From a virus, in the IMG/VR virus record IMGVR_UViG_3300020470_000022, positions 1 to 47,751 of that record: a stretch of DNA of 47,751 nt, one strand, 5' to 3'. Each line of letters begins with the position of its first letter. Position 1 is the first letter of the stretch. Below, piece by piece: positions 2,359-36,659 of the stretch. Both the position numbers and the translations under genes were made by a program. The notes below the pieces were generated by a model. That model had not been told where the DNA came from. It did no database searches and worked only from the letters and a program-made list of their open reading frames with translations.

Positions 2359-2408
2359 TTTTATTTCTCCTAATATTTAAAAACTATATCGTTTTCCTAA
2401 AATTGTTA

Positions 2409-3098: not shown

Positions 3099-3181
3099 TG
3101 TTTGTCTCCTAAAATTGTTAAGTTTTTTTTAAAACTTTTTTGTTGTTCCAATCTTTACTAAATACTTTAATTTTATATATT

Positions 3182-3194
3182 CACATATAAATAT
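3182..3194 (-). promoter_or_regulatory. Candidate late promoter motif, copy 1
   Basis: The coding strand reads ATATTTATATGTG. The same 13-mer recurs exactly at 29260-29272 and with one change at 44037-44049, each time in a gap before a structural gene. Here it lies 84 nt before the ATG at 3098, in a 133-bp gap that otherwise holds only AT-rich sequence. All three copies are followed by AATA or TATA. Promoter function is inferred from position and conservation. Confidence 0.45.
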
Positions 3195-3231
3195 AAAGTA
3201 ACTAAAAAAAATTTAATTTATTTATTTTCTT

Positions 3232-13126: not shown

Positions 13127-16100
13127 TTAATATGACTTTTTATTTTCATCATTCTCTAAATTTGGTTTTAATATGTCTTTCAATTTAGTAGGTTCATTAG
13201 TGTCTTTATCATATTTTATACCATAATCATTAAGAACAATACCAATATTTTTATTACCACTTGAATCTTCAACTTCATCATTAGAAGAAATTTCTTTCAT
13301 AGATAAATCAATTTGAACCCTTTGATCTTTTATTTTTTCAGAAGTTATTGGTGCTGATTTATCTTCTCCGTTCCACTTTGTTCCAGGAGAACCAAATGGT
13401 ATTTTATCACCTTGTAATCCTTTTAATTCATCAAATTTTCCATTTTCATCAACCATTGGTAATACTGGATAATAATAAGTATTACCATATTCATTAATAC
13501 CTTCCCATTCTTGTAAAGATGTTTCATCAACTATGATAGTATTATTATCACTAATTGTTACACCTTGTCTATCTTCAAGTTTATAACTTTTTGGAATTAT
13601 ATTATTCCAATAGTTAGGTGATGATGGATTTCCAGCACTTACATCTTCAAATCCTAATTGTTCCCACATATATGATTGACCTTCATAATATCTAGTTTGT
13701 CCTAAATCAACATCCCCCAAATGTTTACCCATTTCTCCAAAGTTTTTAAACTTACCTTTATTAATTAATATAGGTGTTGTTGTATTTTCTAAATATCCAA
13801 AACTATCAACACTACCAGAATAAAATCCACTAACTTTTGAAGCTGATATAAATTCACCTCCAGTATTAGTCCAATTATCATAATAACTTTGTATTTGATA
13901 ATCTTCGGAAAAATCATTTGGTTGAGATATGGATAAAAATGATCCAGTAAATTTACTAATTTCTTTTCCTATATAATTTTCATCCATTTTAGCCAAAGCA
14001 TATTCAGCATCTATCTTATCTTTATATTTACTAAATTTTAAATCAAATGCACTTTTAGATCCTCCAATATAACCAAGATTTCTTTTAATAGATTTATAAT
14101 ATACACTATCAGATGATAATCCACCAATAATTGGAGTAGTACTTGGATATGGTAAATAAGTGTATGATTCACCACCCAATGATTCAAATTCTTTAGAAAA
14201 TCTTGTATTTTCACCTAAATTTATTCGAACATTAAATTTTTGAAAATCATCAATACCAACAATATTTTCTTCAGAAACATCGTTAAATGATTGACTTAAT
14301 TTAACATTAAAAGCCCATCCAGTAACATCATATATACCATCTTCCTTATAGTTATGTTTTATAACACCATTATTCCACAATTGAAATGGTTTTGATTTAT
14401 ATTTAGGTTTAGAACCATCTCCAAAATTTAAATTATAAATAAACCAAGTAGATTTATCTTTTCCAAAACTTAATGTGTCTACTAATGAATTTCTTTCAGA
14501 TAGTAATGATTTTGCTTCTCTAGGATAAAAGTAAAATTGTGTTTCTACTGGTGCCATATTTTCTTTATATTCTTCTGGCTGTAATTCTTCATCATAATAT
14601 TTTAGTGGTGTAGAATAAGCACTACCACTTCTTAAAGTTGGAAAACACCTAACATCACAATCTATAGAAAATTCATTACCTTCCAAATTTTCTGCAGAAG
14701 CCGTTAAATTAAATGGTTCAGATAATTCACCTTCTGTTAATGCTGACCAAGTTCTATAATCTGGATTGTCTTCTCTATATAAAAAACATCCTAACGAGGG
14801 TCTATCATCCACATCTTCTAATTCTAAAGTATTCTTTTTAGAAAATATATTTCCTTCACCATAACTTGGGATATAGGCATTTTCTGGAATATTAATTCCT
14901 TTCCATGGATTATATCTTTCTTTGACACTTTGAATTATTGGAAACACCCAATCAACATTAAATATAGTTTCACTTTCACCAACATTACTAGATGTATTTA
15001 ACAATGGATTATATCTCAAATCATATGCTTTAATAACGGCTTTATGTAAACCTTCATTTAAAAATTGATAAGTATATCCATTTTCTAAAAATTCTCTAAC
15101 AGTTCCCATTCGTGGAGTTCCACTTAAATCTGTGGTACACGATGTTAAAAAGTTAGCTCCATCTTGAGGATCTTCATTGTTAGTACCATAAGCTATTGTA
15201 CAAGCTTCAACATCATGTTCACCCCATTCAGAATAAACTTGTGTCCACTCACCACCACAATCAAATTCATTTGTTCCACTTTCACATATTTCTTGATTTT
15301 CATTACAAGTTAAAAATACATTTGGATCAGTATTTATCATTTGTTGACCATATCCACCAAGACAAGCACCCTCACCAGATAAAGCACAACAACCATCATT
15401 TGTCCATAGATTTTGCCATACTCCATATTGATCTTCAGAAGATTGTTGTGGTGGATAAAATTGAGATAAACCATGATAAGGAGCTATGTCTTCATATTGG
15501 TCAGCCCAATCAGAAAAAACAACATGATGTAAAAGTGTAGAATTACTTGTTATACATTCTGGATCATTTGGTGCACATTGATATATTAATAATTCATATT
15601 TCCAAACAGTATCATATGGATCTGTACCATCTGGATTCAAGGATTCATCATAATAATCTATTGCATTTTTTGGTAACCATCCACCTAAATTTGTATTATC
15701 ATATTGTACAATAGTTCCATCAACAGCTTCAACATATTCAGTATAAGTTGCAGTTACTGTAAGATTATTAAAACAATTATATGAAGGCCATGAACCATCA
15801 TTAAATATATCAGCAAATTGTGTTTGTATAGATACAAATGAATTGTTTTGATATCCTACTTCTCCAAGAAACTCTTCACATTTACCAAATCCACCATATA
15901 AATCACCTATTGTATCATCTGGATTTCTGCACTCATTGTCTTCACTACAAGGTGAACCAGATATATCAACAGATAATTGTGGATTACCATCTTCGTCTGT
16001 ATAACTTATTATTGAATCTTCAGAACAAAAACCAAATGGTAATGTTGGATTTATAACATTATTTTCAAATTCATAATCCGCATTTTGAAATGATTCTACA

Positions 16101-19100
16101 ATAGTATCAATATATTCTTTACCATCTACATAATATGTAATCAAATCAATTTCTTGATTTTGCTCTTGACAATAAAAACCTATACTATCATTTTCAGGGT
16201 CATATTCATAACCAATAGTTCCAAATCCACCATTAACTATATATGATTCTGGAACTCCTTCTACAACTTCAGGTGAGTAATTAACTATATAATCTCTCAT
16301 ATCATCACCAGCTGGTCTAAATTCATATCTATCTGGTGATACACCAAATGAACTAACGATTGAATAACCAACATCACCTTCTGGTCCTCTTGTATCAATA
16401 ACATACATTTCAAATGTAGTTTGTTCTATAAACTCTTCTTGAATATAATAAGGTGTAAAATCAGAAGTAAAATCACCTTCAACAGTCATATTATAAACGT
16501 CATGTAACATTTCATTCCATCTAGAGGTTAATGTAACTAAATAAGTTCCTTTTGGATTAGGCCTTCTATTACCATCTTGATCAAATAAATCTTTAAATTT
16601 AAAATTAATTTCTTCTGATTGCCAATCTGCACCAGCACCATCCTCATTATTAATTTCTGTAAAGGTATATGTTGTAACCTCAGGTAAAATCATATTTGAT
16701 ACACCAGTGATTGGAGTCACAGTAACATCAACAGTAAATAAATCACCATCCACATCCTTCATTGAAAATGGAAATGGAGTTAAGGCACCTGATTGGAAAT
16801 TTCCACTTGCATCGTATACATCATCAATATCATAAGTTATATTATTTAACCCATCACCATCAGGGTCATAGTCTAATCTAATTGAAGTAGTATCTGTAGA
16901 ACCTTGAGGTAAATTTTGAGATCCGTGTATATCATTTCTTATAAATGTTAAATCTAATTCTTTTGTTATAGTAGCATAATTTTCAGGTACTCCAGATTCT
17001 ATCATAAATAAATCTTTTATGTCAACTCTTAATGTAATTTCAATATCATCTAATTGAGATGGATTGTATTCTAAAGTATGAGTATCTGGTTTATTTATTT
17101 CTAATGGATTATAAATTGGTATGTCTAACATTATTGGATCATTTGCAAAACCAGCACAAATGTCACTACAACCATTATCATTTGTTCCTTCAATAGTATA
17201 AGATGGAGTCCATTCTACATCATTTATATACCATTTAATTTCAAGACTATCACTAGTTAAAAGTTCACCAGGAACTCCTTCACTGGGATACCAAACATTA
17301 TCATATGCATCTGTAACACCGTTTATTGTTCCAGCACCTAATACCCAAACATATAGTATTGAAGATGCAGGTCCTCCACCCTGATTTTCATCGTCTGTAA
17401 ATGGAAATGGTCTTCTTATTAATTGTGGTACACCATCTTGAGTTGTATTATTATCATTTTCTAAAAATACATATCCACTTCTTTCTAAAGGAGGATTAAC
17501 AGCAAATCCTTCTGCATTCTCAAGTCTATATCCTATATTATATTGAAATGGAAATATACAATACCCATCATTTCTTTCCCAAGTTCCAGTACCTCCAGGA
17601 CATTGAGATTCATCATCACAATTTGCTGGTTGTGCGTCACAAAAAGCTTGATTACCAGGTTCTGTATTTCCTACACAAGTACCACCAACAAGAATCCATT
17701 TACTTTGTAAACCATAAATTGTATTTGGATCAATATAAACATCACTATCAGCTGGATATTGTGCTGGTTCACAACAAGTTGATGCATCACCTTCAGGACA
17801 CCCTTCTTCATAAGTCCAATCTATAGAACAATTTGTATTTGCTATATTAAAATTAGTATATTCAATATTTCCATAATAATTAATCGCGTCTCTATCTGTA
17901 CAACCATAATATCCAGAACAAGAGCCGTCTTCATATGTAGCTTCTGTATCATATTCTCCACTTGATGCTATACCAACTGGACTGACACCTGGTGTAACAC
18001 TACCAAATCCAAAATGATTATTAACATATGTCTCACCAATTACAGCCAAACAAGGAGTTCCATCTATACAATCTGTTTCAGAAGAATATGTTGAATCAAC
18101 AAAACATTCATCTGCACTTGAATCACCATAATTACATCTACCACCTGGCATATTACCATCATCCATACATCCTAATTTAGGATATGTACATAATTGGTAA
18201 CAACTTGTACCAGGTATTCCACTAGCATCAGAACAAAGACAACCTTTATTATCACCATCTGAATTAGCTCCACAATCATCATGATTATGACATTGTAAAC
18301 CATTAGAAGCATCATTTTCATCTAGGAAATTCCAACAATATCCCACACTAGCCTTTGGATTATAAAAACCTTCATCGAAACAAGTATCTGGTTGACATAT
18401 ATTACCTATTGGTGATGGTACACAAGAAGAATCAATTTCACACCCTCCATCGTTATCACAAGGTGTATATGTAGCATCATTACAACATTCATTAGTACCA
18501 CATGTTATACAATTACAAGCACCTAACCATCCACCACCAGTTGGTTCATCCATACATCCAGTAATAACATTTGTTTTAATGGTAACTGTATCTAAAATGC
18601 TTGGTGTACAAGTTGTAGTTCCATCACTACATTCACTTGAATCTGATGTACTTCCACAATAACTTCCATCATCACAAGTGTAATAATTATTTGGATATTC
18701 AACATCTATTTGTATAGGTTCACCTGTTTCATCTGGCCATATTAAATCCCATAAAGGTCCGTGTTTTCCACCCAAATTAAAATAAGTATTGTGATAAGTT
18801 ACACAACCAGAACCTATAAGTGGTTCACAAACAGCATTACATGATTCTTCATCAAAGTATTGTTCATCTTCTGTCCAATTTTCTTCAAATGGACAATACC
18901 AATAACTATTAGTATCAGATTGAACTTGGTTACCATCCCCAATCCATCCTTCATGTAACAAGTCACCTTGAAGACTTATTGGTAAATATTCATAATATTC
19001 AACATTACCAGAATAAGTTGTTGTAATTTTAAGATGAATTTCATTTTCACTACCATCTGTAAATAAAGAATCATAATTTAATTCTATTGGTATATCTTCA

Positions 19101-22100
19101 TTTGAATTATATGTATCATCATCAGATGCCCAATCTTCGGGTTCAACAACAGATATTGATGGTGTATATATTTGTAATGTTGTAGTAAGTTCATTACTAT
19201 ATTCTGAATTAGTTATATCAAGTATTCTATATGTTATTTCTATTTCATTTGTATCTGTAGGCCATAATTCTGATGCAACAGATTCAGGTGGAAACATATC
19301 AAGAAAAGTATACTCATACTCAGTTCCATTATTTGTTGTTATTATATCGGTTGGTCCTATAGAATATTCCTCCCCACCATAATAATCATATGGATAATTT
19401 CTTTGAATAGCAAATTGTGGTGTTGGAGAATATGATATCCAAGTTAAATTAACACCATTTTGTATTGTTTGATTTACAATAAAAGCACCATCAGATACAG
19501 ATTCTAAAACTGGTGCATCAAATTCACAAGTTCCATCGTCAAATAGACAATCATACCCCCACGCTTGACACGCTTCAAAATAATTATTTGCAAATTCATT
19601 TGTACACCCAGTACAACGATTATTCCATAATGGATTTGTTGGTATACATACACCACTACCACAAGTGTCTGAAGTACATGGATTTTGACTTATATATGGT
19701 GGAGGTGTATAGTCATCAGGGACTGTAGATGTAAAATCTGTACCTGTATTCCAATTTCCACCACAATCTTCAATACATGCTTCTTGAGAGTTTTGACAAT
19801 GAGTTTCATCGAATCCTCCACCAGAATCAACAGAACATACCCCAAAATCTCTACATTCTGGATCCATACAATTTGAAACATCTTGACCTAAATTGTTACA
19901 TTCATCATATAAATGCCCACTATAACACACTCCATCACAACCTAAAAATATATCAGAAGCAGCCTCTCCAGCTTCATCTAAAGACCAACATACACCACAA
20001 GAATCGATATATCCAAAACAATCATCAGTAACAAAATAATAAGAAAATTCTGTTCCTGCTTCAGCTCCAGGTTGATTTTGACCATCATATAATATTGGTT
20101 CTTCTTGGCCACCAAATTGAGGTGCACATACACTTATTGGGATAGTGACATACCAATCTCCAGTACATTCATTTTCATTCGAATATCCAGTATCAGAACA
20201 ATATCCCAATTCACCAGTTTTTGAATCACCAGTTTCATCCATATCAGGCCAAGCATTCACTGTTTGAGTATTAAAACAACATTGATCTAATACATCTAAT
20301 GTATCTACAGCACTACCCTCAGCAACACATATTCCACTACAACCAGCATCAGGTCCTATAACAAAACAATCTGAATTTTGACTTCCAGAACCACATGGTG
20401 AAGTTACAATTCCACTAGCATCAATTTGTACACAAGGTTGTCCTTCTTCAGGAGAACCTTCAACACAAGTTCCAATATTCATCAAGTTGTTATTATCACC
20501 ACAAGTACCAGAGTCATATGTTTGTTGATCTGGACATTTACAATAATTACAAGCACCATCTGTAGTATTTGAACCAGAATCTCCATCTATTACAACTCCA
20601 TGACAATCTTGACATGGATTCCAATAATATGAATTTGATGGTGTTCCCCAATCAGCAGGACAAGAATCATCAAATATACCACTACCTTCATTATCTACAA
20701 AACAAGTACTACTTGTTGATAAATGTGGTGGATTTGATGTTAATCCAGGTGTGTGACAAACACCACAATCATCTAAATTTTCATTAGCTGTATGTCCACT
20801 ATTACCATCAGAACATACAAGACATTCATCATTATATGCTCCCCATAATTTACAAGAGTTAGTGTTTATCGACCACCCCTCTCCAGCAGGACAATTATTT
20901 AACTCACTATAATATGTTCCAGGAGAACATGTACCCGCACAATCTTGGGAATGATTATAGTAAACTCCAAATTCAACACCATCAAGTGTTGGTTGATTTT
21001 CTATTAATCTATTACCATTAGTATAATAAGGACATACACCACAAGCATCAGCACCAGTTACTCCATCAGATTGTTGACATAAATTTATTTCTGGAGAAAT
21101 ATCACTCCAACATATTTCATCATGATGAGTATATGGAAAAGCACAATCACAAGCTTCACCAGATTCATTACCACTCAAGTTACCTTCTATAACCCATCCA
21201 GCTGGTGGTTGATTTATAGTTGCATAATGAGGAGTCCAATCTAAATTAGGACAATATCCAATAGCTCCACTATCTAAACATCCTATACCATCATCATCAT
21301 AATCAGCATAATAATTATCTAAAATTCCAAATCCTGTTCCACCATCACATATCTCACAATCATCCATATCAGAATATAAACAACAACTACTTTCATAATC
21401 TAAAAATTCACAACAATCATTATTAGTTCCATCTAAAGTTCCATCACAATCATAAGTTGCATAAGAATTATAACCACCATCACAAGTTGCAGACGCTTTA
21501 CTATCAATACATCCTGATTTTCTTAAAGTAAAAGCAAGTTCACTAGTTTCTGATTTTATAGTACCTGATGTAGGCCATTCAATTCTATATTTTGTTATTA
21601 AGTCACCAGGTGTAACAGCTGGAAACCACTCATTTGACGGATAAAGTTTTTCAGATGGAGAAGAGTAAAATGTATTAACTGTATATACATCAACATTATC
21701 ATCTTTCCTTATAACTTTTAAAGATAATGGATCTGGACTTAATCCTTCCCAATACAAAGGTGGATTATCAAATGTATCATAAGTCCATTGTAATTTTGGT
21801 GATGCACCCCATTCATGATAATAACCTTCCCCATTTGATAAAATTGGATTATATACAGAATTATCAGATATCTCTGCTGGAAATACATCAGAAGCTGTTC
21901 CACAAGTTCCATCACATTGTAAATCATTATAACAAGTTGAACCATCGTTTCCACCACCAGCTCCTTCACAAATACCTCCAATATTTAAAGAAGCTATTGA
22001 AATTGTAGGATATGTACATTCACTATCTTTTGGAATAGTAATACAATCTTGATAAGATGGTTCACATAAACATTCTCCTATACTAGAACCTGATGTTGAA

Positions 22101-25100
22101 CAGTTTGTTGCATATGCATCTGTACAACCCAAGAAGTGTATAGTTTCAGGTGGTAAACAAACACCTAGACAATCAGCACTCGTACCACAATTACTACCGC
22201 CATCTTCTTCTCCATTAGAATCATCACATATACCATTTACCCAAAATATTTCAGGTAATGGAATACCAGTATCATTTGGTCTTTCTAATGGAGAATCTGC
22301 ACCATCACTCATATAAACATTTGTTCTATCAAAAGATAATTTAAATGGAATTATTTCTGTTCCTGGATCTGTAACTGTGAAATTAAATTGAAGTAATTTA
22401 GCTGGTGTACTATTTGTTATAGCTGGTAAAACTGCTCCAGCTGAATAATAATCACCATAAATAATATTATTATTTACATATGTTGGAAAATTATTATCTT
22501 GAATTAATCCAGTATTAGTTACACTTGTTATAGTAAAGTTAGAAGTATCTGTAAAACCAAATGCCCAATAACCAATTGTTTGTTTATTTTCAATCCAAAT
22601 TTCAGCTGAACCTGTCATTGCTGATGAATCTATTGTTACATTTTTAATTTCAAGTAACACATTACAAGATGTATTGTCACCAAAACAAACACCACATGCA
22701 TCTTTATCACTATTAGCTGTATGACCTGAATTACCTCCAGAACATATTAAACAATCATCACAAGTTGCTGAACCATCAGAGTCACCATTACAATCACATG
22801 AACCATTCCATTGTTGACCTACAGCTCCACAAACAGCTGCACTACTATCACCATCACAAATACCACAAGTATCTAAAGCACCTGTTTCACAACATTGTTC
22901 TGTACCTGGACTTCCAGTATTTGGTATGTATGATATTTCTCCAGTACCACCACATACACCACAAATATCTTGTTGTACATCACATTCAGTTTCATCATTA
23001 CAAGTTAATTGTCCTTCACATAAACAAGTATGAGTAAATCCAGTTCCAGGTACACCTGGAGTTGAAGAACAATTTCCACAACCATCTACATCTAATTGAG
23101 GACATTCAGTTGCCTCATCACTACAATAAGTTCCAGAACAGTCTGTACAATTATATGGTCCATCTCCACCACATACACCACAATCGTCATATGGTGATAG
23201 ACTATCACCTTGTGATGTATTAACACAAGCCGTATTATGTGAAGCGTTAGAATCCCAAGTTGTATTACAAGTACAACCACCAGCACAATCTTCATATAAA
23301 CAAGTACCACCAGGTATCGTAGCTTCAGAATCATAAGTACAAGAAGTTGAATCCATACATCCAGTACAAGTAGAGTTATCACCACCACAAACACCACATT
23401 CATCAACTACAGTATCACCATCACAAGTATTAGTACAATCATAATAATCACCAGAATCTAATCTTGTTAAACTTGCTCCCCAAATCCATGCATGATGATT
23501 TGGTCCTATATATTCAATTCCATTTGAAGCTGTATGTTTTGAATTAACCCATACATTTCCAGTATGACCTAAAACCCCATCAGGATTTGATACGGAATCT
23601 ACACAAGTACCTACAATATTACCATCTGCATCAAGTCCAGAAGTTTCATAAACACCATCACCATCTAAATCTAATGGGCTTCCAGACCATGTATCATTCC
23701 CAACTTGACATAAACAATCGTGTCTGGAATATTGTAAAGCTTCTTCTGCACAAGTACCACTCCATTCACCATCTGCAAATGTTGCATTTGATAAACATTT
23801 CATTCCACCACCACCAAGTTGATTTCCAAGCATTATTCGTGCACTTATTATATCACCATGTTGTTGACCATCTTCACCAATTGTATTTACAAAATTAGGT
23901 ACAAAAACATATTCAAGTTTAGTCCATTGGTCAAGTTTATCTGAAACTGGATAATTATAATCAGAACCTACAGGATGACAATAATGATTTAATCCATCCA
24001 TATTAGATGTATTAGGAGTTATATTGTTACAAGTTATATTATAACCATGAGTATTATCTACAGAATTACATGAATTAGTATTCCAATCACTATTATTACA
24101 AACTTGTGAAACATATAATTGAGCTATTCTATCATTGTTAGGATTAAACCATTCATTACCATTGCAATAAGTTGTTGATTCAACACCATCCGAAGGTATA
24201 TAAACCCAAGTACTAAATCTATATGGAACTCCAGCTTGTAATCTTGGTGTTGGTACATGACCATTTATAGGTGCATTTAAAGAGTTAGCTATATCATTAT
24301 CCCATATAGGATTTATAATTTCTTCATCTTGAACTCTAAACCTATATCCAATTCTCATCGTATTTTTAGAATTATTGTCTCCATTTCTAACAAGTGTTGC
24401 ATTTGTTGAAAAACCATCTGGTGCTAATGGAGGTGCACCCCATCGTGTATTATCTTGATTATTTATATCATAAGTTGTGTGATGAAAATAATTTGCTCCA
24501 ATATATCTTAATCCATCTAATAATTCTTCTGTCACATAGTCACAATTACATTGCTGTCCACCAATAGAGTCAGGACAATTCATATCTCCTGGATCTTGAC
24601 TTATACAACTACCACCACATACACCACATAAATCATAATAACTTCCAAACCTAGCGTCATCATAACACACCCCAGAACAATCTTTTGAGTGACCCCAATA
24701 AACAGGAAATGGTGTACCATCATCTAAAGTGATTGTATCTAAAGGTGAACCTATCGTATAATTTGAACATACACCACAATCATCTAAATTATTTTGACAT
24801 TGATTACTTAAACAAACAAGTTCATCATCACAACAAGTTACATAATCACCAGAAGCTGAACCATTACCACCACATACACCGCAGTCATCTTCCAAACCAC
24901 AAGTATCTACATCACCATAATCAGCACCAGTGCCAACTGTAACACAATAATAATATGGATATGTTGTACCACCACCAGCTGGGATAGGAACTCCACCACA
25001 TTGATCACAAGACACTTCACCAACTCCACTAACTCCACATCCACATCCATTATTTTGATCACAAGTTGTAGAACCACCACCAAAACCATTTGGACAATAC

Positions 25101-28100
25101 CAATCACCACAAGTATATGTAGAACCTAATTCACTACACGCTGTGTAAGTTGAAACTAAATTACAAACACCACATTCATCTTCTGTTGGCCAATTTCCAG
25201 ATCCACATTCATATGCAGTATCAGCCGCATTTCTTTCACAATCACATTTTCCAGCTGGGATACCTGAACCACCACAACAACCACATTCATCTATTGTAAC
25301 ATCACCACCACAAGAACCCTCACAATCATTTGTTAATCCACCATCACAAGTTCCTTCACAATCTAAATTTGCAGTTGGACAACACCCACCTTCTCCATCT
25401 TCAACCCAATCACCATCACACGCTCCATTACAATCAAATTCATTTGAAACACAACTATCATCTTCATCAGCATTATTTGCTACCCAACCAGAAGGTTGAT
25501 CACCAGGACAATATGTTACACCATCACCAGCACCAAAACCATCTCCATCTGCATCTTCCCAATATGTAATTGGTTCTACACTACCACCAGGAGTTCCTTG
25601 ACAATCACAACAATTATCACCAGAAGCTTCTCCACACCAATCTTCTATTTCAGTAGCTCCACCAGAACATACACCACATCTATCAAAATCATCACCAGAA
25701 AAACAAGAGTAACCACCATCAGCACAAACACAAACATTATTAGTCATTGTTCCTGTACTACTATCACTACAAATATTATTACCACCACAAATTTGACAAT
25801 CATCAATTGTAACATCACCAAGACAAGTACCTTCACAATCAGCTGAAGCTCCTTCCCCATCTTCACATTCACAATCACCACCACCTGTTACATACCAACA
25901 AGTTCCATCATCATCTGTTGCATTGGAATCATAATTACAAGCACCCGAATCCGTACAACCAGCTACTTCTAATTCATCACATATACCATCACCATCAGAA
26001 TCGTTTAAACAATTTCCCAAGCAATCATAGTATGTTTCTGCATATTCACAAGAACCTTGAATGGTAGCTTCAGAGTCATAATTACAAGCATCACCATCCA
26101 TACAACCTGTACAAGTTGAATCATCACCACCACAGATTCCACAATTGTCATATTGATGTGTACAACAATATTGATCGTCTAAAGGTCCTCCACAAGTTTG
26201 TCCAGGTGTATCACACCAATTACCAACATTAGAACCAGCACCATCTTCACTTATAACTGTACAAGAGCATGTTGTTGAAGTATCTGCAGAACCATTATTA
26301 CAACAAGTTGTGTTGTCACCATTACATTCACCACAAAAATCATCTGTTTGAATAGACTCACATACATTATTACAACCACAATTTACAGAAGTACAACATT
26401 CACAATCAGAATTTAAATAATCAAAACAGCCGGCTTCTGCTGCAGAAAGTGCACAACCACCTGAACCACAAGGTAAACTTGATGCATCTCCTTCTCCTTC
26501 AATTTCAGAATTATCTTCACCACAAGTAAAAATAAGGTTACTACCATTTGGAACACTTGCACAATCAGAACATGATGAATCATCTCCACCACATACATTA
26601 CATTCATCTAAAAGTTGTGTACATACAGAATCACTTGGAGCTCCATCTGGACAAAAACTTCCATTACAATCACAATCACCTTGACCACCAAATGTTGTTC
26701 CATTGTTACAACAAGTTGTATAATCACAATCACCAGGAAGTGTTGCTCCAGCATCATAATTACAAGCTACTTCATCTTGACAACCTGTACAAGATGAGTT
26801 GTCTCCACCACAAATTCCACAATCATCTATTTCAGATGAACCACCACATTCACCAGCACAGTCCTCAACAAGAGTTCCACCACAAGTTCCTTCACAATCT
26901 GAAGATTGGTTATTACCAGAACATACACAACAAGAATCTAAATTTGGGCTATCTGTGTCTGGGTTATATTCATTTGTTCCTGTAGATCCATAAAGTTCTA
27001 TATAATCTAAACAAGCTTGATTTGTATATGAAGACATATCACAAGTTGATGTTCCATCACCATCTGTTCTTGTAATTGTTTTACAATTTGGTATAATACT
27101 TGTGTTACCCCCAGAACAAACACCACAGTCATCAGGAAATGCTACACCACCTGGATCACCATTACAATCAGATAAAATAGAAGCACCATAAACTATAGAT
27201 GAAGCATATTCAGAAGGAGCTTCAGATTCATATTGAATAATTGTACCATCACTATATTGATTATCTACAAAAGAAAGATTTGAGTTAACAGCCATAGATA
27301 GATAATTGAGTTTAAACAATGTTACACTTGTATCAATGGTTAAGTTTGTTCCACCACCTATAACACCACTTACCTTATTACCACTAAAAGTAACAGATGC
27401 CCAATCAGAAGTTGATGTACCATCTGTTATTATACTATTAATAGTGATACCTTCAAATTCTATATCTGTAAATTGTTGTATTGGAAAATCTGTATTTATT
27501 AAAACTTCTATAGTTTGTTCATCTAAATCTATATTACCAAAATTTAATTCTAATGGAAACTCACAACAATCATTATCTACTCCATATTGATTACAAGGTA
27601 AGTAACAAGATTCAAGACACATATCATCAGATGGACAATCTGCACCAGAGTAAACTTCGTCAGCTGCACATATTACAAATGATGCATCATATCCAGAATT
27701 TATAGCTGCTGGATCTGTACAAGTTGTAACTGCATTGTATAAACAAGTTCCATTATCTACTGTAGCACCACTATCATAATTATTAGCATTTTGATCTGTA
27801 CAACCACCTATAATAACTTCTGCAGTACTATTATGTTTCAGTGGTGTTGAGTAATTTCCACTAAAATCATATTCTTCTCTATTTAAACCTAAACCACCTT
27901 CAGTTGTTGATGCTGTCCACCAATTAGGAAAATTAAATCCATAATCATCACCATCAATTTCTACCCAAGAATTATTATTTACATCACTTGTAGTATCATC
28001 ATAATCATGTGCAACATTCCAACTATTACCATCTAAATAAGTTTGAAAATTAAATTCAGTTTCATATGCACCCACATACTCAATACTATTACCAGCATCA

Positions 28101-29221
28101 ATATGATCTTCTTCCCAATTATTTTGTTCAGGATTATAATTTATAGAACAATGTAATTGATCTGGACTTCCCCCACCATCAGTATCTTTCCATAATTCTA
28201 TCGTATCACCACTATCTAATAATCTATATTTAGTAAATGATGTGTATGCATTTCTAAAACCACTATCGGCACCACTACCAATAGTTGTTGTAGTACTACT
28301 ACCATTAATACCTTCACCTTCATCACCCCAGTCACCACCTGCATAAAATCTACCACATTTATAATGTGTTATATCACAGTCAGTTCCTCTATCACTTGCA
28401 GCTAAATTTATTGGATAATCTTGATCATCTGGTCTAAATACACCTTTTCTGTTATTATTACTTGCATTATTTGAAATAACATGAAAAAATCCATTTGCTG
28501 GTATTGTACTTTCGTAAACAAATCCATTCCAAGAAGTATCATTATTATTATACCAACCTGGCTCATCATAATTAGGACCAATTTTTACTAAATCTCCATA
28601 TCCAGTTTTAATCCACCAATTTGATAAATCTATAGCTCCAGATGTTCTATTATATAATTCTATCCAATCAGGAACCCATTTACCATCATCAGCAGCAAAA
28701 TGAATTTCATTAATAAAAACACTACAAGGTGGGGCTGTGGTTGTAACAAAAAAATTCCATTGATTTGAAGTTTGAGATCCAGCTCCTAAAGTAAATTCAA
28801 TATACTCAGAATTAGTTACTGCATTTTCAGCAACATTTACGGGAAATATAGCATTTCTATAATCTTGTTCAGAAGAGCCATTTAATTCATCTGCAACAAA
28901 TACATAAAATTTTATTGGAGCTCCATTTTCATCAGAGGCAAAAAATGGCATTTGAATTGTGGTAACACCATTAGCAGTTAATAAATCAGATACAGATAAA
29001 TACCCTCTTAAAAACCATTCTTCTTCATCTTCATTATATATGTAAGCAAATAAAACATCATCTGGATTTGTACTTGGTACATCATTTACAATAACACCAG
29101 CACCATTACCCCAATCAGCACCATTTACAGTATAAGAACATGTAGTATCGTATCCCCCAGGAATCTCCCAAGAGCTATTACCATTTAGAATTTCTATTAT
29201 ACTTGAAAAATCTTCTACCAT
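13127..29221 (-). CDS. Giant Cys-rich mosaic adhesin/tail fibre, 5,364 aa, with LTD, cohesin-like, CBM-like and PKD domains
   Basis: One uninterrupted frame of 5,364 codons. Approximate domain order: Ig-like N-terminus (1-160); lamin-tail-like domain (165-300, with FINEIHFAADD and DWIELYNRTSGAIDLSNWWI); a GCTDQNANNYDSGAT repeat (470-490); cohesin-like sandwich 1 (555-675); long Cys-rich tract of CGVCGGDNSSC / GCMDxxACNYDSEAT repeats (677-1560); CBM4/9-like jelly roll (1565-1925, with YRFSTWVYIP, then WTKLEYVFVP); more Cys repeats; cohesin-like 2 (2185-2320); mixed Cys-rich and Fn3-like segments to about 3900; then beta-rich modules, PKD (4900-4970, NLNFGDGSKP) and a C-terminal module shared with the 889-residue protein (about 5018-5185). 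There are hundreds of Cys by eye. No signal peptide, catalytic motif or T9SS sorting tail is visible. The position inside the tail operon indicates a virion protein, probably a very long host-binding fibre whose C-terminus attaches to the baseplate. The ribosome binding site is weak, and a candidate late promoter lies 39 nt upstream. Confidence 0.7.
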   Translation of the reverse strand: MVEDFSSIIEILNGNSSWEIPGGYDTTCSYTVNGADWGNGAGVIVNDVPSTNPDDVLFAYIYNEDEEEWFLRGYLSVSDLLTANGVTTIQMPFFASDENGAPIKFYVFVADELNGSSEQDYRNAIFPVNVAENAVTNSEYIEFTLGAGSQTSNQWNFFVTTTAPPCSVFINEIHFAADDGKWVPDWIELYNRTSGAIDLSNWWIKTGYGDLVKIGPNYDEPGWYNNNDTSWNGFVYESTIPANGFFHVISNNASNNNRKGVFRPDDQDYPINLAASDRGTDCDITHYKCGRFYAGGDWGDEGEGINGSSTTTTIGSGADSGFRNAYTSFTKYRLLDSGDTIELWKDTDGGGSPDQLHCSINYNPEQNNWEEDHIDAGNSIEYVGAYETEFNFQTYLDGNSWNVAHDYDDTTSDVNNNSWVEIDGDDYGFNFPNWWTASTTEGGLGLNREEYDFSGNYSTPLKHNSTAEVIIGGCTDQNANNYDSGATVDNGTCLYNAVTTCTDPAAINSGYDASFVICAADEVYSGADCPSDDMCLESCYLPCNQYGVDNDCCEFPLELNFGNIDLDEQTIEVLINTDFPIQQFTDIEFEGITINSIITDGTSTSDWASVTFSGNKVSGVIGGGTNLTIDTSVTLFKLNYLSMAVNSNLSFVDNQYSDGTIIQYESEAPSEYASSIVYGASILSDCNGDPGGVAFPDDCGVCSGGNTSIIPNCKTITRTDGDGTSTCDMSSYTNQACLDYIELYGSTGTNEYNPDTDSPNLDSCCVCSGNNQSSDCEGTCGGTLVEDCAGECGGSSEIDDCGICGGDNSSCTGCQDEVACNYDAGATLPGDCDYTTCCNNGTTFGGQGDCDCNGSFCPDGAPSDSVCTQLLDECNVCGGDDSSCSDCASVPNGSNLIFTCGEDNSEIEGEGDASSLPCGSGGCALSAAEAGCFDYLNSDCECCTSVNCGCNNVCESIQTDDFCGECNGDNTTCCNNGSADTSTTCSCTVISEDGAGSNVGNWCDTPGQTCGGPLDDQYCCTHQYDNCGICGGDDSTCTGCMDGDACNYDSEATIQGSCEYAETYYDCLGNCLNDSDGDGICDELEVAGCTDSGACNYDSNATDDDGTCWYVTGGGDCECEDGEGASADCEGTCLGDVTIDDCQICGGNNICSDSSTGTMTNNVCVCADGGYSCFSGDDFDRCGVCSGGATEIEDWCGEASGDNCCDCQGTPGGSVEPITYWEDADGDGFGAGDGVTYCPGDQPSGWVANNADEDDSCVSNEFDCNGACDGDWVEDGEGGCCPTANLDCEGTCDGGLTNDCEGSCGGDVTIDECGCCGGSGIPAGKCDCERNAADTAYECGSGNWPTEDECGVCNLVSTYTACSELGSTYTCGDWYCPNGFGGGSTTCDQNNGCGCGVSGVGEVSCDQCGGVPIPAGGGTTYPYYYCVTVGTGADYGDVDTCGLEDDCGVCGGNGSASGDYVTCCDDELVCLSNQCQNNLDDCGVCSNYTIGSPLDTITLDDGTPFPVYWGHSKDCSGVCYDDARFGSYYDLCGVCGGSCISQDPGDMNCPDSIGGQQCNCDYVTEELLDGLRYIGANYFHHTTYDINNQDNTRWGAPPLAPDGFSTNATLVRNGDNNSKNTMRIGYRFRVQDEEIINPIWDNDIANSLNAPINGHVPTPRLQAGVPYRFSTWVYIPSDGVESTTYCNGNEWFNPNNDRIAQLYVSQVCNNSDWNTNSCNSVDNTHGYNITCNNITPNTSNMDGLNHYCHPVGSDYNYPVSDKLDQWTKLEYVFVPNFVNTIGEDGQQHGDIISARIMLGNQLGGGGMKCLSNATFADGEWSGTCAEEALQYSRHDCLCQVGNDTWSGSPLDLDGDGVYETSGLDADGNIVGTCVDSVSNPDGVLGHTGNVWVNSKHTASNGIEYIGPNHHAWIWGASLTRLDSGDYYDCTNTCDGDTVVDECGVCGGDNSTCTGCMDSTSCTYDSEATIPGGTCLYEDCAGGCTCNTTWDSNASHNTACVNTSQGDSLSPYDDCGVCGGDGPYNCTDCSGTYCSDEATECPQLDVDGCGNCSSTPGVPGTGFTHTCLCEGQLTCNDETECDVQQDICGVCGGTGEISYIPNTGSPGTEQCCETGALDTCGICDGDSSAAVCGAVGQQWNGSCDCNGDSDGSATCDDCLICSGGNSGHTANSDKDACGVCFGDNTSCNVLLEIKNVTIDSSAMTGSAEIWIENKQTIGYWAFGFTDTSNFTITSVTNTGLIQDNNFPTYVNNNIIYGDYYSAGAVLPAITNSTPAKLLQFNFTVTDPGTEIIPFKLSFDRTNVYMSDGADSPLERPNDTGIPLPEIFWVNGICDDSNGEEDGGSNCGTSADCLGVCLPPETIHFLGCTDAYATNCSTSGSSIGECLCEPSYQDCITIPKDSECTYPTISIASLNIGGICEGAGGGNDGSTCYNDLQCDGTCGTASDVFPAEISDNSVYNPILSNGEGYYHEWGASPKLQWTYDTFDNPPLYWEGLSPDPLSLKVIRKDDNVDVYTVNTFYSSPSEKLYPSNEWFPAVTPGDLITKYRIEWPTSGTIKSETSELAFTLRKSGCIDSKASATCDGGYNSYATYDCDGTLDGTNNDCCEFLDYESSCCLYSDMDDCEICDGGTGFGILDNYYADYDDDGIGCLDSGAIGYCPNLDWTPHYATINQPPAGWVIEGNLSGNESGEACDCAFPYTHHDEICWSDISPEINLCQQSDGVTGADACGVCPYYTNGNRLIENQPTLDGVEFGVYYNHSQDCAGTCSPGTYYSELNNCPAGEGWSINTNSCKLWGAYNDECLVCSDGNSGHTANENLDDCGVCHTPGLTSNPPHLSTSSTCFVDNEGSGIFDDSCPADWGTPSNSYYWNPCQDCHGVVIDGDSGSNTTDGACNYCKCPDQQTYDSGTCGDNNNLMNIGTCVEGSPEEGQPCVQIDASGIVTSPCGSGSQNSDCFVIGPDAGCSGICVAEGSAVDTLDVLDQCCFNTQTVNAWPDMDETGDSKTGELGYCSDTGYSNENECTGDWYVTIPISVCAPQFGGQEEPILYDGQNQPGAEAGTEFSYYFVTDDCFGYIDSCGVCWSLDEAGEAASDIFLGCDGVCYSGHLYDECNNLGQDVSNCMDPECRDFGVCSVDSGGGFDETHCQNSQEACIEDCGGNWNTGTDFTSTVPDDYTPPPYISQNPCTSDTCGSGVCIPTNPLWNNRCTGCTNEFANNYFEACQAWGYDCLFDDGTCEFDAPVLESVSDGAFIVNQTIQNGVNLTWISYSPTPQFAIQRNYPYDYYGGEEYSIGPTDIITTNNGTEYEYTFLDMFPPESVASELWPTDTNEIEITYRILDITNSEYSNELTTTLQIYTPSISVVEPEDWASDDDTYNSNEDIPIELNYDSLFTDGSENEIHLKITTTYSGNVEYYEYLPISLQGDLLHEGWIGDGNQVQSDTNSYWYCPFEENWTEDEQYFDEESCNAVCEPLIGSGCVTYHNTYFNLGGKHGPLWDLIWPDETGEPIQIDVEYPNNYYTCDDGSYCGSTSDSSECSDGTTTCTPSILDTVTIKTNVITGCMDEPTGGGWLGACNCITCGTNECCNDATYTPCDNDGGCEIDSSCVPSPIGNICQPDTCFDEGFYNPKASVGYCWNFLDENDASNGLQCHNHDDCGANSDGDNKGCLCSDASGIPGTSCYQLCTYPKLGCMDDGNMPGGRCNYGDSSADECFVDSTYSSETDCIDGTPCLAVIGETYVNNHFGFGSVTPGVSPVGIASSGEYDTEATYEDGSCSGYYGCTDRDAINYYGNIEYTNFNIANTNCSIDWTYEEGCPEGDASTCCEPAQYPADSDVYIDPNTIYGLQSKWILVGGTCVGNTEPGNQAFCDAQPANCDDESQCPGGTGTWERNDGYCIFPFQYNIGYRLENAEGFAVNPPLERSGYVFLENDNNTTQDGVPQLIRRPFPFTDDENQGGGPASSILYVWVLGAGTINGVTDAYDNVWYPSEGVPGELLTSDSLEIKWYINDVEWTPSYTIEGTNDNGCSDICAGFANDPIMLDIPIYNPLEINKPDTHTLEYNPSQLDDIEITLRVDIKDLFMIESGVPENYATITKELDLTFIRNDIHGSQNLPQGSTDTTSIRLDYDPDGDGLNNITYDIDDVYDASGNFQSGALTPFPFSMKDVDGDLFTVDVTVTPITGVSNMILPEVTTYTFTEINNEDGAGADWQSEEINFKFKDLFDQDGNRRPNPKGTYLVTLTSRWNEMLHDVYNMTVEGDFTSDFTPYYIQEEFIEQTTFEMYVIDTRGPEGDVGYSIVSSFGVSPDRYEFRPAGDDMRDYIVNYSPEVVEGVPESYIVNGGFGTIGYEYDPENDSIGFYCQEQNQEIDLITYYVDGKEYIDTIVESFQNADYEFENNVINPTLPFGFCSEDSIISYTDEDGNPQLSVDISGSPCSEDNECRNPDDTIGDLYGGFGKCEEFLGEVGYQNNSFVSIQTQFADIFNDGSWPSYNCFNNLTVTATYTEYVEAVDGTIVQYDNTNLGGWLPKNAIDYYDESLNPDGTDPYDTVWKYELLIYQCAPNDPECITSNSTLLHHVVFSDWADQYEDIAPYHGLSQFYPPQQSSEDQYGVWQNLWTNDGCCALSGEGACLGGYGQQMINTDPNVFLTCNENQEICESGTNEFDCGGEWTQVYSEWGEHDVEACTIAYGTNNEDPQDGANFLTSCTTDLSGTPRMGTVREFLENGYTYQFLNEGLHKAVIKAYDLRYNPLLNTSSNVGESETIFNVDWVFPIIQSVKERYNPWKGINIPENAYIPSYGEGNIFSKKNTLELEDVDDRPSLGCFLYREDNPDYRTWSALTEGELSEPFNLTASAENLEGNEFSIDCDVRCFPTLRSGSAYSTPLKYYDEELQPEEYKENMAPVETQFYFYPREAKSLLSERNSLVDTLSFGKDKSTWFIYNLNFGDGSKPKYKSKPFQLWNNGVIKHNYKEDGIYDVTGWAFNVKLSQSFNDVSEENIVGIDDFQKFNVRINLGENTRFSKEFESLGGESYTYLPYPSTTPIIGGLSSDSVYYKSIKRNLGYIGGSKSAFDLKFSKYKDKIDAEYALAKMDENYIGKEISKFTGSFLSISQPNDFSEDYQIQSYYDNWTNTGGEFISASKVSGFYSGSVDSFGYLENTTTPILINKGKFKNFGEMGKHLGDVDLGQTRYYEGQSYMWEQLGFEDVSAGNPSSPNYWNNIIPKSYKLEDRQGVTISDNNTIIVDETSLQEWEGINEYGNTYYYPVLPMVDENGKFDELKGLQGDKIPFGSPGTKWNGEDKSAPITSEKIKDQRVQIDLSMKEISSNDEVEDSSGNKNIGIVLNDYGIKYDKDTNEPTKLKDILKPNLENDENKKSY
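22690..27190 (-). repeat. Tract of coding Cys-rich repeats (CGVCGGDNSSC type)
   Basis: Within the 5,364-codon gene the protein repeats units of the form DxCGVCGGDNSSCxGC, often followed by a GCMDxxACNYDxxAT unit and by CEGTCGG or CDCxG units. The tract is interrupted once, at about 23450-24540, by the CBM-like insert. At the DNA level this gives a recurring plus-strand CCACCACA(T/A)ACACCACA pattern with variable spacing. Copies differ at many positions, so the array is old or under selection to diverge. Such a tract invites recombination and also assembly error. Confidence 0.7.
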
Positions 29222-29299: not shown

Positions 29300-32200
29300 T
29301 CATTGACACATTTCTTCATAACTGCTCCAACCAGTTATTTGTTGGAATAATATATCAGTGTTTAAATAATTATCTTGACTTGTTCCTGGTGCATACATTT
29401 GGTTTATTATATTGCAAAAATCTTGTGGAAGTAATATCCCCTCACTACATACATGAATATGTTGTATTAATGATTGCCATTTATTTAGAACATTTTCAGG
29501 CCATATATTTTTGTCTCCACTAATTGGATTTTGACATGTTAACCCATATATTCTTTCAAGTTTTGACCATTTTTGAATTGATGGTGGTATACCAGCACTC
29601 TCAAGATGATTATAATCAAGATGTATATTAACCATTATATCAGAACACCATTCTTTATAAAGATCCCAATTAGTTGCATCTTCTGCAGAATACTCACTTG
29701 TTCCATCCCAATAAACTAAACTATTTTGTTTATCATTACACCAATTCGCCCACGCCCAATTTGCATCTTCATTATCAATTAAATATTGACTAAATCCTTC
29801 AGGTTCTTTATTTAATATATGATTTGTATATCCACCATTATCAAGAGCTAATTGATGAATTGTTTTCTGGAAAAGATTACCTATTGTAGAAGGTAAATGA
29901 GTTATCTCATTTAATTGAAATCCTATATCAAGATACCACAGTTCAGTTAAATTTCCAAAATATTGATCTAAATTATTTTTTAATAATACATTACCTTTAA
30001 GAATAAAATCATTACTTGATTGTAAATTTAAATATTCAAGTCTTCGACATTGATAACTATTTGTACATGGTTCTCCTGGATATGCTATTCCTATACATTC
30101 ATTTAAAGTAGGATGACATAATCCAGAACTTTCCCACCATTTAACTCTATAACTATTCAAAAATTCATCAAATGATGCATATTCATTATTTATAGAACCA
30201 CCTTCACCTGCATTTATACTACCATAAATAATTTCAAGAACTTGATAATCTGTCCATCTAACATATTCTTGACAAGAAGAACCATCACCATTACATACAC
30301 CACATTCGTCAACTACAGCGTCACCACCACATTCACCATTACAATCAACGTCTACTAAACAGTTACCATCACAATCAAAGTTTTCTTCAGGGTAAACACA
30401 AGAACCATCATCAACTGTTGCTGTTTCATAAAAGTTGCATGCTGAAGAATCTGTACATCCACTAACAGACATTGGTGGTGAATCATCCTCAACAGTTTCA
30501 ACAATAATGTTTTCTAAATTATATCTTAAATATCCACCATTAGCAGATTGAAGATAATATCCTCTACCAGGATATAATGTAAATGGTTGCCAAGCAGATG
30601 GTAACTTTATAGCTACACCTTGAGAGTAACCAGTATTATCAGGTCCACCAATACTATCATTATCAGCCCACTCTCCAAAAACATCAATACCATTAATAGT
30701 AGGTTCACATAAAGTACATTCACCAGGACCTAATAATTGAAAGTTATCTTCATCTATAACAATTGATTCATTTCCTATGTAAGAAATATAATTTGTAAAA
30801 TTACTTTCACCTTTTGGTATAATTGGAATAACATCAAATGTTGGTACTACACCCTCATCAATACAAGCTTGTGCAAATGAGTCAAAGTCTGAATATTTAT
30901 AAGAATAGTTAGTAGCACAATCATTACAAATAATATATCCATTCGATTCACACCAAGTTGAATAATATAAATCATATTCACAATAAATTGGAGTCCAATC
31001 TTCTGTGTCTTGATTTCCTATATCTGTTAGATAATCACAAGCACAAGATTCATCTATTACATCACCACAAGTAACTTCACTTGGTATTGTACAATTACTA
31101 TCTATTGTTGTATAAACATCTTCACAAGTAATATTTTCATTTGTTATTCCATCAGCTAAACAATCTAATCCATAATTAAAATCTGCACAAGTTAACTCAT
31201 CAGCACAATCATCTGGGTCAATCCAATCATCTGAATTTCCACACCAAGTTGGACAATTGTCATTCAAACAAGTTTCATCACAACAACCAGTCTCACCACA
31301 TTGAGAATCACACTCATCATCACAACAACCAGCGTCACCACAACTATCACCATCATTATATGGTGGGATATAATATTCAGGACATTGTTGTTGTGGCCAC
31401 ATAGCATCACCTAAAATGAAACCAATTGTACCTAATACATCCAATATATTAATTGTTCCATCATTGTTCATATCTATACCACTTGAAGATTCACCACCAA
31501 CAGTTATACCTTCTTCAAGATATTCACAACTTCCATCATCAACTGTTGCATCTGGATTATAATTTATAGCATATATGTCTGTGCAACCACTTTCATTTTG
31601 AACAGGTTCACATGTTGCCCAAACATAATAAGAAATGTTTGGATATGTTCCATCAACTGATTGTTGCCATAAAGCAGATTGGGGTGTATTCCATGTCTCA
31701 CTACAAGCACCAATTGGTGTATCTTTACCAGGAACATAATAATCCCTCATATAAAGTGGATGATCTACTATGCCATCACCAGTTGAATCAGCGTTGTAAT
31801 GATTGATAATGTAATACCATCCAGCATCTGTTGGATATGTGTTTGAATTTTCAAACATCTCTATGGGATCGTCTGTACTGGTTTGGTCGTATCCAATTTT
31901 TACCAAATTAAGTTGTTTACACTCAGTTCCAGCTGGACAAACAGATCCATAAGTTTCATCCTCACCAATAGTTAAACTATTATGAAAAGCTACGAATGGT
32001 TTATTTGGATCTATTTCAAATTCAGGTCTACATACATCTGTAGGAGTTACATCACATTCTATACAAGTACCATCATCATACAATGCATTTGGATTATAAT
32101 TTGTTGCAGTAGCATCTGTACATCCAGTAAATTCTGGGTTTATTGTACAATCTACTTTTCCATAAAAGTTATTTTGTTGATAATAGTTTCCATCATTATC

Positions 32201-35200
32201 AAGTACACTTGTTATAATTGTATTTTTACATAAAGAAGGACAAGTTTTAGCTAAATCATCATTAACATCTAAATTATTGCAATATCCATGTCCAATAGAT
32301 ATATTTTCTTGATTACATGGTGGCCATCCCCAAACAGCTGGTTCATTAGTTGTATCATCATGACATACAGCCCATATCCATGGTGGATATCCATTTGCAA
32401 ATATGGATTCCTCAGTAACAAAATCACCAGTTTGTGTAGATGCTCTATAAGATTGTGTATGATGTAAATAATATATAAAATCTGATATTCTTAAATCACA
32501 CACATTAGACGAACCTTGTTGAGCCAAAATATCACCTACATTAACTGGGAAAACATTTGGTACAGGTTGATTAGTATTATCCCAACCAGTCACATCCCAA
32601 CCATCAGCTATAAAAGAATTAAAACTGTATGTAGTTTCTGTAGGGTACTCTTCATGTGTTGCTATACCTAATGGATATGTTATAAGTCTATCTGGATTTT
32701 TTACATAAGTTGGAGCATATGAATAATTTACATCGACACAAGAGAAAGTTCTATTTTGTGTACCTTGTCCTAAATTTAATCTAAAATCATTACATAAATC
32801 TCTAATGTAAAGTGGAGGACCATCACCATCTTCACCAGTAGTATATCCACCATTAGCTGGATCTTGATTAAATACTTCGGAATAAAGATTATTAAATTCA
32901 TCCCATGGTCTAATTGTTTGAGTGGGATGAGCTTGAGACATATAATACCACCATGGACTAAATGATGGACCATTAACCAACACATCCATACTTTCTGCCC
33001 AAGTTCCAAAAGCAGTACCATCTGGCCAATGATTAATTGTATTATAAACTAAAAAAGGATAACCAAGTTTACCACCAGCTAATAAACCATCTTCACTATC
33101 ACAGTTCATCCCAGCCCATGTTGGTGTATAATGTTCTGATAATATTGGATCTCCATTAATAAAAGTTGCGTTTGGAGTAAATGTTTCACATGCATCTGAA
33201 ATTGTTAAACTAGAACCATTATTAATTGCACTACCTGGAAAATATTGTGAACTACAATTTGCATGTGGAGCTTGAGCTGATGTTAGACTATATGTAGTAA
33301 CTGATGCATCTTCATCATACCGTAAATAATCAAAAACTTCTCCTGGTCCTGTTTCAACCATATCAATTGAATTTAAATCCCCAAGTGTTGTAGAATTATT
33401 TAAAGCTTCCCACGAAGTTTCTCCTATTTCTGGGTATGTATTATTATCAAAAACATTTAATCTTGGTGAAGATAAAAATTTAATCAAAAGTCTGTTTGTA
33501 GATACTGGATCTGTTCTATCAGGATTTGGTGGTGAAACATCATCATCAGGATCCCATGGTACATCTGGATCAATTGTTGAGAGTAAATTTAAATACTCCT
33601 CAGCTCTTAAATTTGAATTTGAATTTAATATATAAGATTCTTTATTTAGTGCATCTTGAATAGATATTTTATTTTTATTTTTAGTTTTTGCTGTTAAATT
33701 TCTTACAAGATTTTTTCTTTCTACATTTACTGTCACATCTAAATTTGGATAATTATTATATACATCATTTAAAATATTTCTAACTTCATTTTCTTCAGAT
33801 TGAGATAATGTTCCAGTAGATAAAATATGATTTATAAGTACCATAATATCAAGAATGTTTATATCACCATCACCATTGATATCTGACATAAATTTTTCAT
33901 ATGAACTTAACTCTATTTCGGTGAATGAACTATTATCAACTTGAGAAGTATAAACCAAAATTGTATTTAGTAATATTATAAGATCTTGAACATTAACCAT
34001 ATTATCATGATTAACATCACCTATTTGAATATTCGTACCAGGTTCATTTATACATTCATTGGAATTAAAATATAAATCAGGAAACTCTATACAAGTTGGA
34101 TAGGGTGGACATAAATTATTAAATGAAAAATCTATTACTTGTAAATTATTTGTATAATAATTTTCACAAAAAGATTCTGGTAGATTATTATGAATTTTTG
34201 TATGTGTTATTTTTAATGTGTGTGCATTTGTTATACTACTAATTTCAGGACCAATTATGCCCGTCAATGGTAAATTATGTATTATTAATGATTCTAAATT
34301 ATTTATTAAAAATATGTCATTTGCAATGTTACCTTCAGTCCATATATCTTTAAGATATATTTCTCGAATGTTTTCACCATATTCATACAAACCTGTAACA
34401 TATCTAGATCTTTGAGGTAGTGACATATTTAAACAATTTATATTTTCATTAGTGCCATTCGTTTGACAAAACTGCCAATCAAAAACTCCAATGTCTGTAT
34501 AATCACCCGTGTTATTTATAGAACTTTGAAATTGACTTGGTGCATCTATTGTTACTTTTTTCAAATTTGGATTAGACCAGAATTTTTCAGGAAAAGTATT
34601 AATTGAATATTGTTGATCTGAAGTAGATGAATTGTATGTCATCTCTTTAAAGTCACCCCGTATAGCTTGGTCTTTAATAGATATTTCTTCAATAGTAGTT
34701 ATAGGTCCTTGTAATCCTTCAAGATTAAACATTGAGTCAAACAGTCCAAACCATAAACCATATCGTTCTTCAGAACCTTCTTGTATCCAAGATTTTAATT
34801 TTATTTTTTTTAGGTAAGGTAATTGTGAAAATAAATCTAACCTTTCCGAATAAAATGGACATCCTTCCTCACACACAAAACCTACCAATCGATTGTTTTC
34901 CCATTCCAATGATACAGTAGTATTACCATTATGATTATGTATTTCAAGTGGTTGAATATCTAATGTATAATAATTTGTATTTATAAGTTGTTCTAATATT
35001 GCAATATCATTAATGTTATAACAAGTATTAATTTCACCACCAATTAAATCTTCACCACTATACTCATCCGATGTACATGGTGTATATTCACAACTTCCAT
35101 CATCAACTGTTGCATCTGGATTATAATTTAAAGCATTTGGATCTGTGCAACCCTCTAAAATTTCACAAATAGAATCATCAGAAAACATACACAATTCACA

Positions 35201-36639: not shown

Positions 36640-36659
36640 AACCTATAATCTCCTATTTG

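Follow-up and report, generated by a model that had tools for sequence, protein, structure and literature searches.

A 5,364-residue protein in the baseplate locus of a marine phage, a probable tail adhesin with bacterial surface modules

A 47,751-bp virus contig in IMG/VR (record IMGVR_UViG_3300020470_000022), the whole of which is called the window here, encodes a protein of 5,364 residues in a T4-type baseplate locus. Judging from gene order and sequence relatives, the virus is an uncultured marine T4-type myovirus, probably with a Marinimicrobia host, and this giant protein is probably an adhesin at its tail tip. The contig has a GC content of 25-38%, all of its substantial genes lie on the minus strand and are read from right to left, and no tRNA was found on it. 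A preliminary description of this DNA had presented the giant gene as one frame encoding successive bacterial surface modules, and the frame is indeed uninterrupted (Table 1). The protein contains 328 cysteines (6.1%). A comparison of its first 1,500 residues with 50,697 phage records gave no match, and residues from about 2250 to 4800, about half of the protein, had no relative among all sequences fetched.

Table 1. Features of the window and the evidence for them
Feature	Position	Strand	Evidence or remark
Large tail gene, 2,402 aa	3232..10440	-	conserved with immuto and Mel-JY01; marks far side of slot
889-aa protein, paralogous anchor segment	10443..13112	-	blastp 37% over 54 aa; homologue in L171
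Giant modular protein, 5,364 aa	13127..29221	-	open frame, ATG to TAA, no internal stop
Phage-only C-terminal anchor, residues 4889-5364	13127..14557	-	alignment A2, viral scan, HMM; N-half PKD-like
GCTD modules at residues 3205 and 3773	17822..19609	-	motifs; surrounding stretch without relatives
Second CGVCGGD/GCTD tract, residues 1927-2190	22652..23443	-	motifs and relatives
Cys-rich CGxCGG/GCTD tract, residues 697-1560	24542..27133	-	motifs and relatives
Divergent cohesin-like domain, residues 553-680	27182..27565	-	profile level, below any Pfam cut-off
GCTD module at residue 473	27731..27805	-	motif count, relatives
Lamin Tail Domain (LTD), residues 163-262	28436..28735	-	Pfam PF00932, E 6.6e-10
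Neighbouring gene, 2,246 codons	29300..36037	-	98-aa ORF, in-frame UGA and 2,116-aa ORF; redoxin, GCTD, LRR, dockerin
GCTD-CGVC module of neighbouring gene	30266..30472	-	motif count and relatives
LRR end and dockerin type I unit	33815..34267	-	Pfam PF00404, E 4.6e-10
Redoxin domain spanning the UGA	35459..35860	-	Pfam PF08534, E 3.2e-5
SECIS-like hairpin UUCUUC-AGGUA-GAAGAA	35705..35721	-	loop 25 nt after UGA; model from PMC13188914
In-frame TGA, candidate selenocysteine codon	35741..35743	-	first Cys position of redoxin CxxC (UxxC)
Two genes	36052..37535	-	single gene in the relatives seen; LamG-like by eye; no Pfam match
gp6-like baseplate wedge gene	38741-40906	-	PHROGs 219/6/10646
gp25-like baseplate wedge gene	40920-41381	-	PHROGs 261/43

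The phage context assumed in the preliminary description is borne out by the gp6-like and gp25-like genes recognized with PHROGs. In reading direction, an HD-type phosphohydrolase-like protein is followed by gp25, gp6, a 400-aa protein, two genes, the 2,246-codon neighbouring gene, the giant gene, the 889-aa protein and the 2,402-aa tail gene. Flavobacterium phage vB_FspM_immuto (Immutovirus), whose gp6 is about 34-35% identical, and Microcystis phage Mel-JY01 share with the window the order phosphohydrolase...gp25-gp6-[slot]-large tail gene-229-382-358; Flavobacterium and Microcystis are also the hosts of the annotated phages nearest by gp6. In the slot, immuto has one 339-nt gene and Mel-JY01 one 1,242-nt gene, against about 24 kb in the window, and since both phages keep the order with one short gene, the slot is an expansion site. 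In L168, L171, L172, L187, L198 and L014, the same slot is filled by large ORFs that encode GCTD, LTD or Cys modules. This location in the baseplate operon, common to relatives, is as expected of a tail adhesin. As with T4-like tail fibers and adhesins, the giant gene lies beside the gp25 and gp6 wedge genes and joins a variable, putatively receptor-binding part to a conserved part. It differs from them in that the conserved part is C-terminal, in relatives sometimes split by the variable part, and in that the protein is of such size and made of bacterial secretome modules. The large tail gene varies in length, from 1,265-1,451 aa in several relatives to 2,062-2,219 aa in L246 and L027 and 2,402 aa here. 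The second of the two genes ahead of the neighbouring gene has its own ribosome-binding site.

The last ~475 residues of the giant protein define an anchor family (alignment A2) of about 17 viral loci, several of them on contigs already seen and often in the same genomic place, which was absent from all cellular loci fetched. Full-length relatives match with E values of 1e-181 to 1e-68 and contain 0-8.3% cysteine. They range from a 981-aa protein without cysteine (L070) over a 2,367-aa protein with LTD, GCTD and CGVCGG (L171) and proteins of 3,389-3,404 aa with 8.3% cysteine (L201, L202) to the L198 protein with 3,903 aa and the L204 protein, whose length is 4,524 aa or more. The parts attached to or inserted in the anchor differ among phages and contain up to three LTDs. 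Long insertions lie inside the anchor in L171, L198 and L204, and in L206-L208, L211-L213, L215 and L216 its halves are encoded by separate ORFs; the join between the halves is therefore a second insertion point. A PKD-like nature of the N-half is suggested by three weak lines, one of which is Foldseek, where the anchor gave weak PKD-type matches alone, none below E 0.05; the structure model is itself weak (pLDDT 59). A conserved family with a variable attached part is as expected of a tail adhesin, and since the parts before or within the anchor vary freely between phages, the giant protein fits the pattern of an exchangeable tail adhesin on a conserved mount.

An alternative is that the giant protein is non-structural and the product of a moron gene, a surface protein which the phage took from its host and expresses while infecting. 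GCTD proteins that have both a signal peptide and a sorting domain are indeed encoded on other virus contigs in IMG/VR. The two hallmarks of a T9SS-secreted surface protein are missing here, as the N-terminus has no hydrophobic stretch (judged by eye) and no C-terminal sorting domain (Por_Secre_tail) was found with Pfam, while flavobacterial and Marinimicrobia carriers of these modules have such a domain. Together with an ending in a phage-specific anchor family and a place inside conserved baseplate gene order, seen in several relatives as well, this argues for the tail adhesin and makes a moron gene improbable. Even less probable, and very improbable indeed, is that the frame arose by chimeric assembly or stays open by chance. 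Parts of the argument do rest on one metagenomic contig, a single 47,751-bp record, and half of the protein is without a relative; against this stand 5,364 open codons, uniform third-position GC along the gene, and independent contigs which share the architecture and the anchor.

Several of the modules named in the preliminary description were recovered in the giant protein. The LTD scored 39.8 bits with PF00932 against a gathering cut-off of 34.3. Five GCTDxxAxNY-type motifs (residues 473, 1039, 1088, 3205 and 3773), four CG[VI]CGGD motifs (residues 801, 1027, 1942 and 2014) and 11 looser C[GN]xC[GS]G motifs were counted, with three further GCTDxxAxNY-type motifs in the neighbouring protein P0002. 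Composition-preserving shuffles gave 0.003-0.08 motifs per protein, and the LTD, GCTD and CGxCGG motifs in the giant protein are far above chance. The tract at residues 697-1560 matched Flavobacteriales L086 at up to 61% over 98 aa and Marinimicrobia L133 at 66% over 73 aa. The cohesin-like domain is supported by profile comparison only: residues 553-680 group with a family of Marinimicrobia domains which reaches 98.4% in hhalign against Marinimicrobia Pfam-cohesins, but they had no direct match in Pfam (cohesin PF00963, below the gathering cut-off) or in the PDB. A PDB search with the cohesin-like profile A3 came back empty, a single-sequence structure model of the domain was of low confidence (pLDDT 34.5), and jackhmmer seeded with it drifted into GCTD modules. 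The carbohydrate-binding module was dropped as unsupported, as the CBM-like stretch (about residues 1575-1925) had no relative, no Pfam match at E<=5 and no similarity to a CBM family.

Third-position GC is uniform at 5-10% along the giant gene and 7-18% in other genes of the contig, which places the giant gene at the level of the phage core or lower. A recent capture was considered on grounds of base composition and rejected, the rise in GC to 38% stemming from codon positions 1 and 2 (Gly/Cys) and not from position 3. The modules carry the codon habits of the phage and, since their third-position GC matches the phage core, were not acquired recently. The idea of capture or exchange of host adhesin pieces thus keeps its support from cellular relatives, but not in the form of a single or recent event: several contigs of the lineage have these module classes at the same place and third-position GC is phage-like, so that the module traffic is old and lineage-wide. 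Three features were absent from the preliminary description, namely the C-terminal anchor confined to phages, the dockerin of the neighbouring gene and the UGA within its frame.

GCTD-type modules belong to secreted proteins of marine Marinimicrobia and Flavobacteriales, much as the preliminary description had stated for marine Bacteroidota and Marinimicrobia. Best matches in the similarity searches it proposed are not confined to phages, because the modules have abundant cellular relatives. For the same tail adhesin, the host could be a marine Flavobacteriales bacterium (Crocinitomicaceae-like) with more than 100 module copies per genome. Among the cellular loci listed (at least 80, biased by the number of genomes per group), nearly all, including almost all of the best, are marine Flavobacteriales and one is Neomarinimicrobiota. 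Most flavobacterial genomes tried contain 120-221 matches to the GCTD module, with a best single-module score of 81 bits against 73 bits in one Marinimicrobia order; immuto infects Flavobacterium, and intact GCTD proteins of the T9SS type are encoded on IMG/VR virus contigs, L163 and L166 among them. In the Marinimicrobia order, whose phylum label was taken from the titles of L133 and L151, at least 24 of 41 genomes have at least 30 candidates each. GCTD-dense genomes number 21 of 149 across the Marinimicrobia phylum and 9 of 296 across Bacteroidota. This common module is thus dense in a portion of each candidate host group, and its scores in the two are roughly the same.

Three features tell the groups apart, among them the dockerin and the cohesin-like domain, and these favour Marinimicrobia. 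The LRR-dockerin unit of the neighbouring gene was matched in 26 of the 41 genomes of the Marinimicrobia order and in none of 198 Flavobacteriales genomes, which was not an empty search because the flavobacterial set responded to the GCTD profile. In one secreted Marinimicrobia protein, 391 aa in length, the match runs contiguously through LRR, cap and dockerin, at 34% over 153 aa. The cohesin-like domain was found in 11/41 genomes of the order with a single sequence, and is sparse in Flavobacteriales, at 9/198 with a more sensitive profile; cohesins above the Pfam cut-off occur in 27 of the 41. Phage relative L014 matches the Marinimicrobia secreted protein L249 over 199 aa (E 4e-30) and has nothing in common with flavobacterial loci. 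L249 (2,887 aa) shares the module order of the giant protein (cohesin-like, GCTD, CGVCGGD) and includes a Pfam cohesin; such Marinimicrobia proteins differ in having a signal peptide and a T9SS-type sorting domain and in lacking the phage anchor. The T9SS-secreted GCTD proteins of marine Flavobacteriales share GCTD-CGVCGGD modules with the giant protein, but have SprB repeats and Por_Secre_tail, and no LRR-dockerin relative was found there. Contigs of the phage lineage, about 33-41% related, lie in two Marinimicrobia bins: G659:C60 (L246, 18.9 kb, immuto-like layout) and G733:C127 (L247). They may reflect infection or binning, as viral contigs may be mis-binned. The host clue of the preliminary description is thereby sharpened: with modest confidence we take the host to be a Marinimicrobia bacterium, and a Flavobacteriales host to be possible but rather doubtful.

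Host-type GCTD proteins also occur on other IMG/VR virus contigs (L163 7997-11170, L166 8039-11032, also L165, L167, L169 and L170), those of L163, L166 and L167 being 84-134 kb. The L163 protein begins with a signal-peptide-like stretch, the L163 and L166 proteins terminate in a T9SS sorting domain, and some neighbours are similar to genes near the corresponding place on phage contig G733:C127. The genome of L127, which bears the title Euryarchaeota archaeon SP189, has about 150 GCTD module matches, as in Flavobacteriales, and is either mislabelled or contaminated or a real archaeal case.

The dockerin encoded by the neighbouring gene scored 40 bits with PF00404 against a gathering cut-off of 22.9, has paired Ca-binding repeats and matched solved dockerins. 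Like cellulosome-type cohesin-dockerin pairs, the locus combines a dockerin with two Ca-binding-type repeats and a cohesin-like domain in the next gene. It differs in having no scaffoldin and no carbohydrate enzyme and in a cohesin too divergent for Pfam, and binding is putative.

The neighbouring gene consists of a 98-aa and a 2,116-aa ORF which form one frame split by a single TGA. A redoxin match (PF08534, 24.2 bits, just under the cut-off of 26.6) appears only when the UGA is read through, and neither half alone matches. The UGA aligns with the first Cys of CxxC in PDB 2m72; a UGA at the redox Cys of a thiol oxidoreductase fold is as expected of a bacterial selenoprotein, and among marine microbes, redoxins with UxxC form a well-known family of selenoproteins (PMC2398784, PMC13188914). 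The published bSECIS model calls for a loop of 3-9 nt with G in its first two positions, a stem of 4-16 bp, a spacing of 16-37 nt and a minimum free energy of -7.5 kcal/mol or lower (PMC13188914). The hairpin here, with the 5-nt loop AGGUA, a 6-bp stem and 25 nt spacing, agrees with this model in loop, stem, G and spacing, but its energy of -6.7 kcal/mol misses the limit. In the window, a hairpin with suitable loop and spacing stands behind 3.3% of Cys codons and behind 4.5% of codons overall. The 98-aa ORF has an ATG with a good Shine-Dalgarno sequence. An alternative code with TGA read as tryptophan was rejected, as TGG is used 248 times and TGA terminates other genes normally, one via an ATGA overlap. 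Selenocysteine would fit a cysteine-rich tail complex, and we regard its encoding by this UGA as a candidate of just under even probability. The redoxin differs from marine redoxin selenoproteins in forming part of a phage protein that extends over more than 2,000 residues, with putative Sec insertion.

The UGA might equally be a nonsense mutation or a sequencing error, with the 2,116-aa part unexpressed or made from a weak GTG. This reading, which we hold to be slightly on the probable side, is consistent with the folding energy, with a viral scan that gave no relatives of the redoxin part, leaving one sequence only, and with an Rfam search that gave nothing meaningful around the UGA. It is opposed by the exact placement of the UGA on the first CxxC Cys in a known UxxC family, by the rarity of such hairpins, and by the more than 2,100 further open codons behind a GTG that has no ribosome-binding site.

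In the proposed explanation, the anchor would fix the giant protein to the baseplate and an arm of ~4,800 residues, partly Cys-rich, would reach out and bind the host surface, using module families that the host itself displays. Cohesins on the surface of the host, or else the cohesin-like domain of the giant protein, may be the partner of the dockerin in the neighbouring tail protein. The many cysteines in a protein made in a reducing cytoplasm need explaining. The weak anchor model, the possible mis-binning, the equal GCTD scores between groups and the gp6 relatives infecting Flavobacterium and Microcystis also speak against this explanation. An unlikely extension is that the tail complex with which a Marinimicrobia phage binds its host is made of the cohesin/dockerin and Cys-rich surface modules of that host, plus a selenocysteine redoxin domain on the neighbouring tail protein that would help to form or reshuffle the hundreds of disulfides or react with the host surface. 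If true, the virion would contain a cohesin-dockerin joint, and the phage would encode a selenoprotein.

The uncultured Marinimicrobia (SAR406) occur widely in the ocean. Little literature was found on their viruses, and nothing helpful on giant phage proteins or lamin tail domains in phage tails. Subscription papers aside, no precedent was found for a tail locus in which a dockerin and a cohesin-like domain are neighbours, or for a phage gene with a UGA at a redoxin catalytic site. Phage tail adhesins are known; what appears to be new here are the bacterial secretome modules, the cohesin/dockerin parts, the giant size and the variable slot. By gathering surface modules of host type, such a tail locus would provide a sequence handle for phage-host assignment and allow asking how receptors and adhesins co-evolve.
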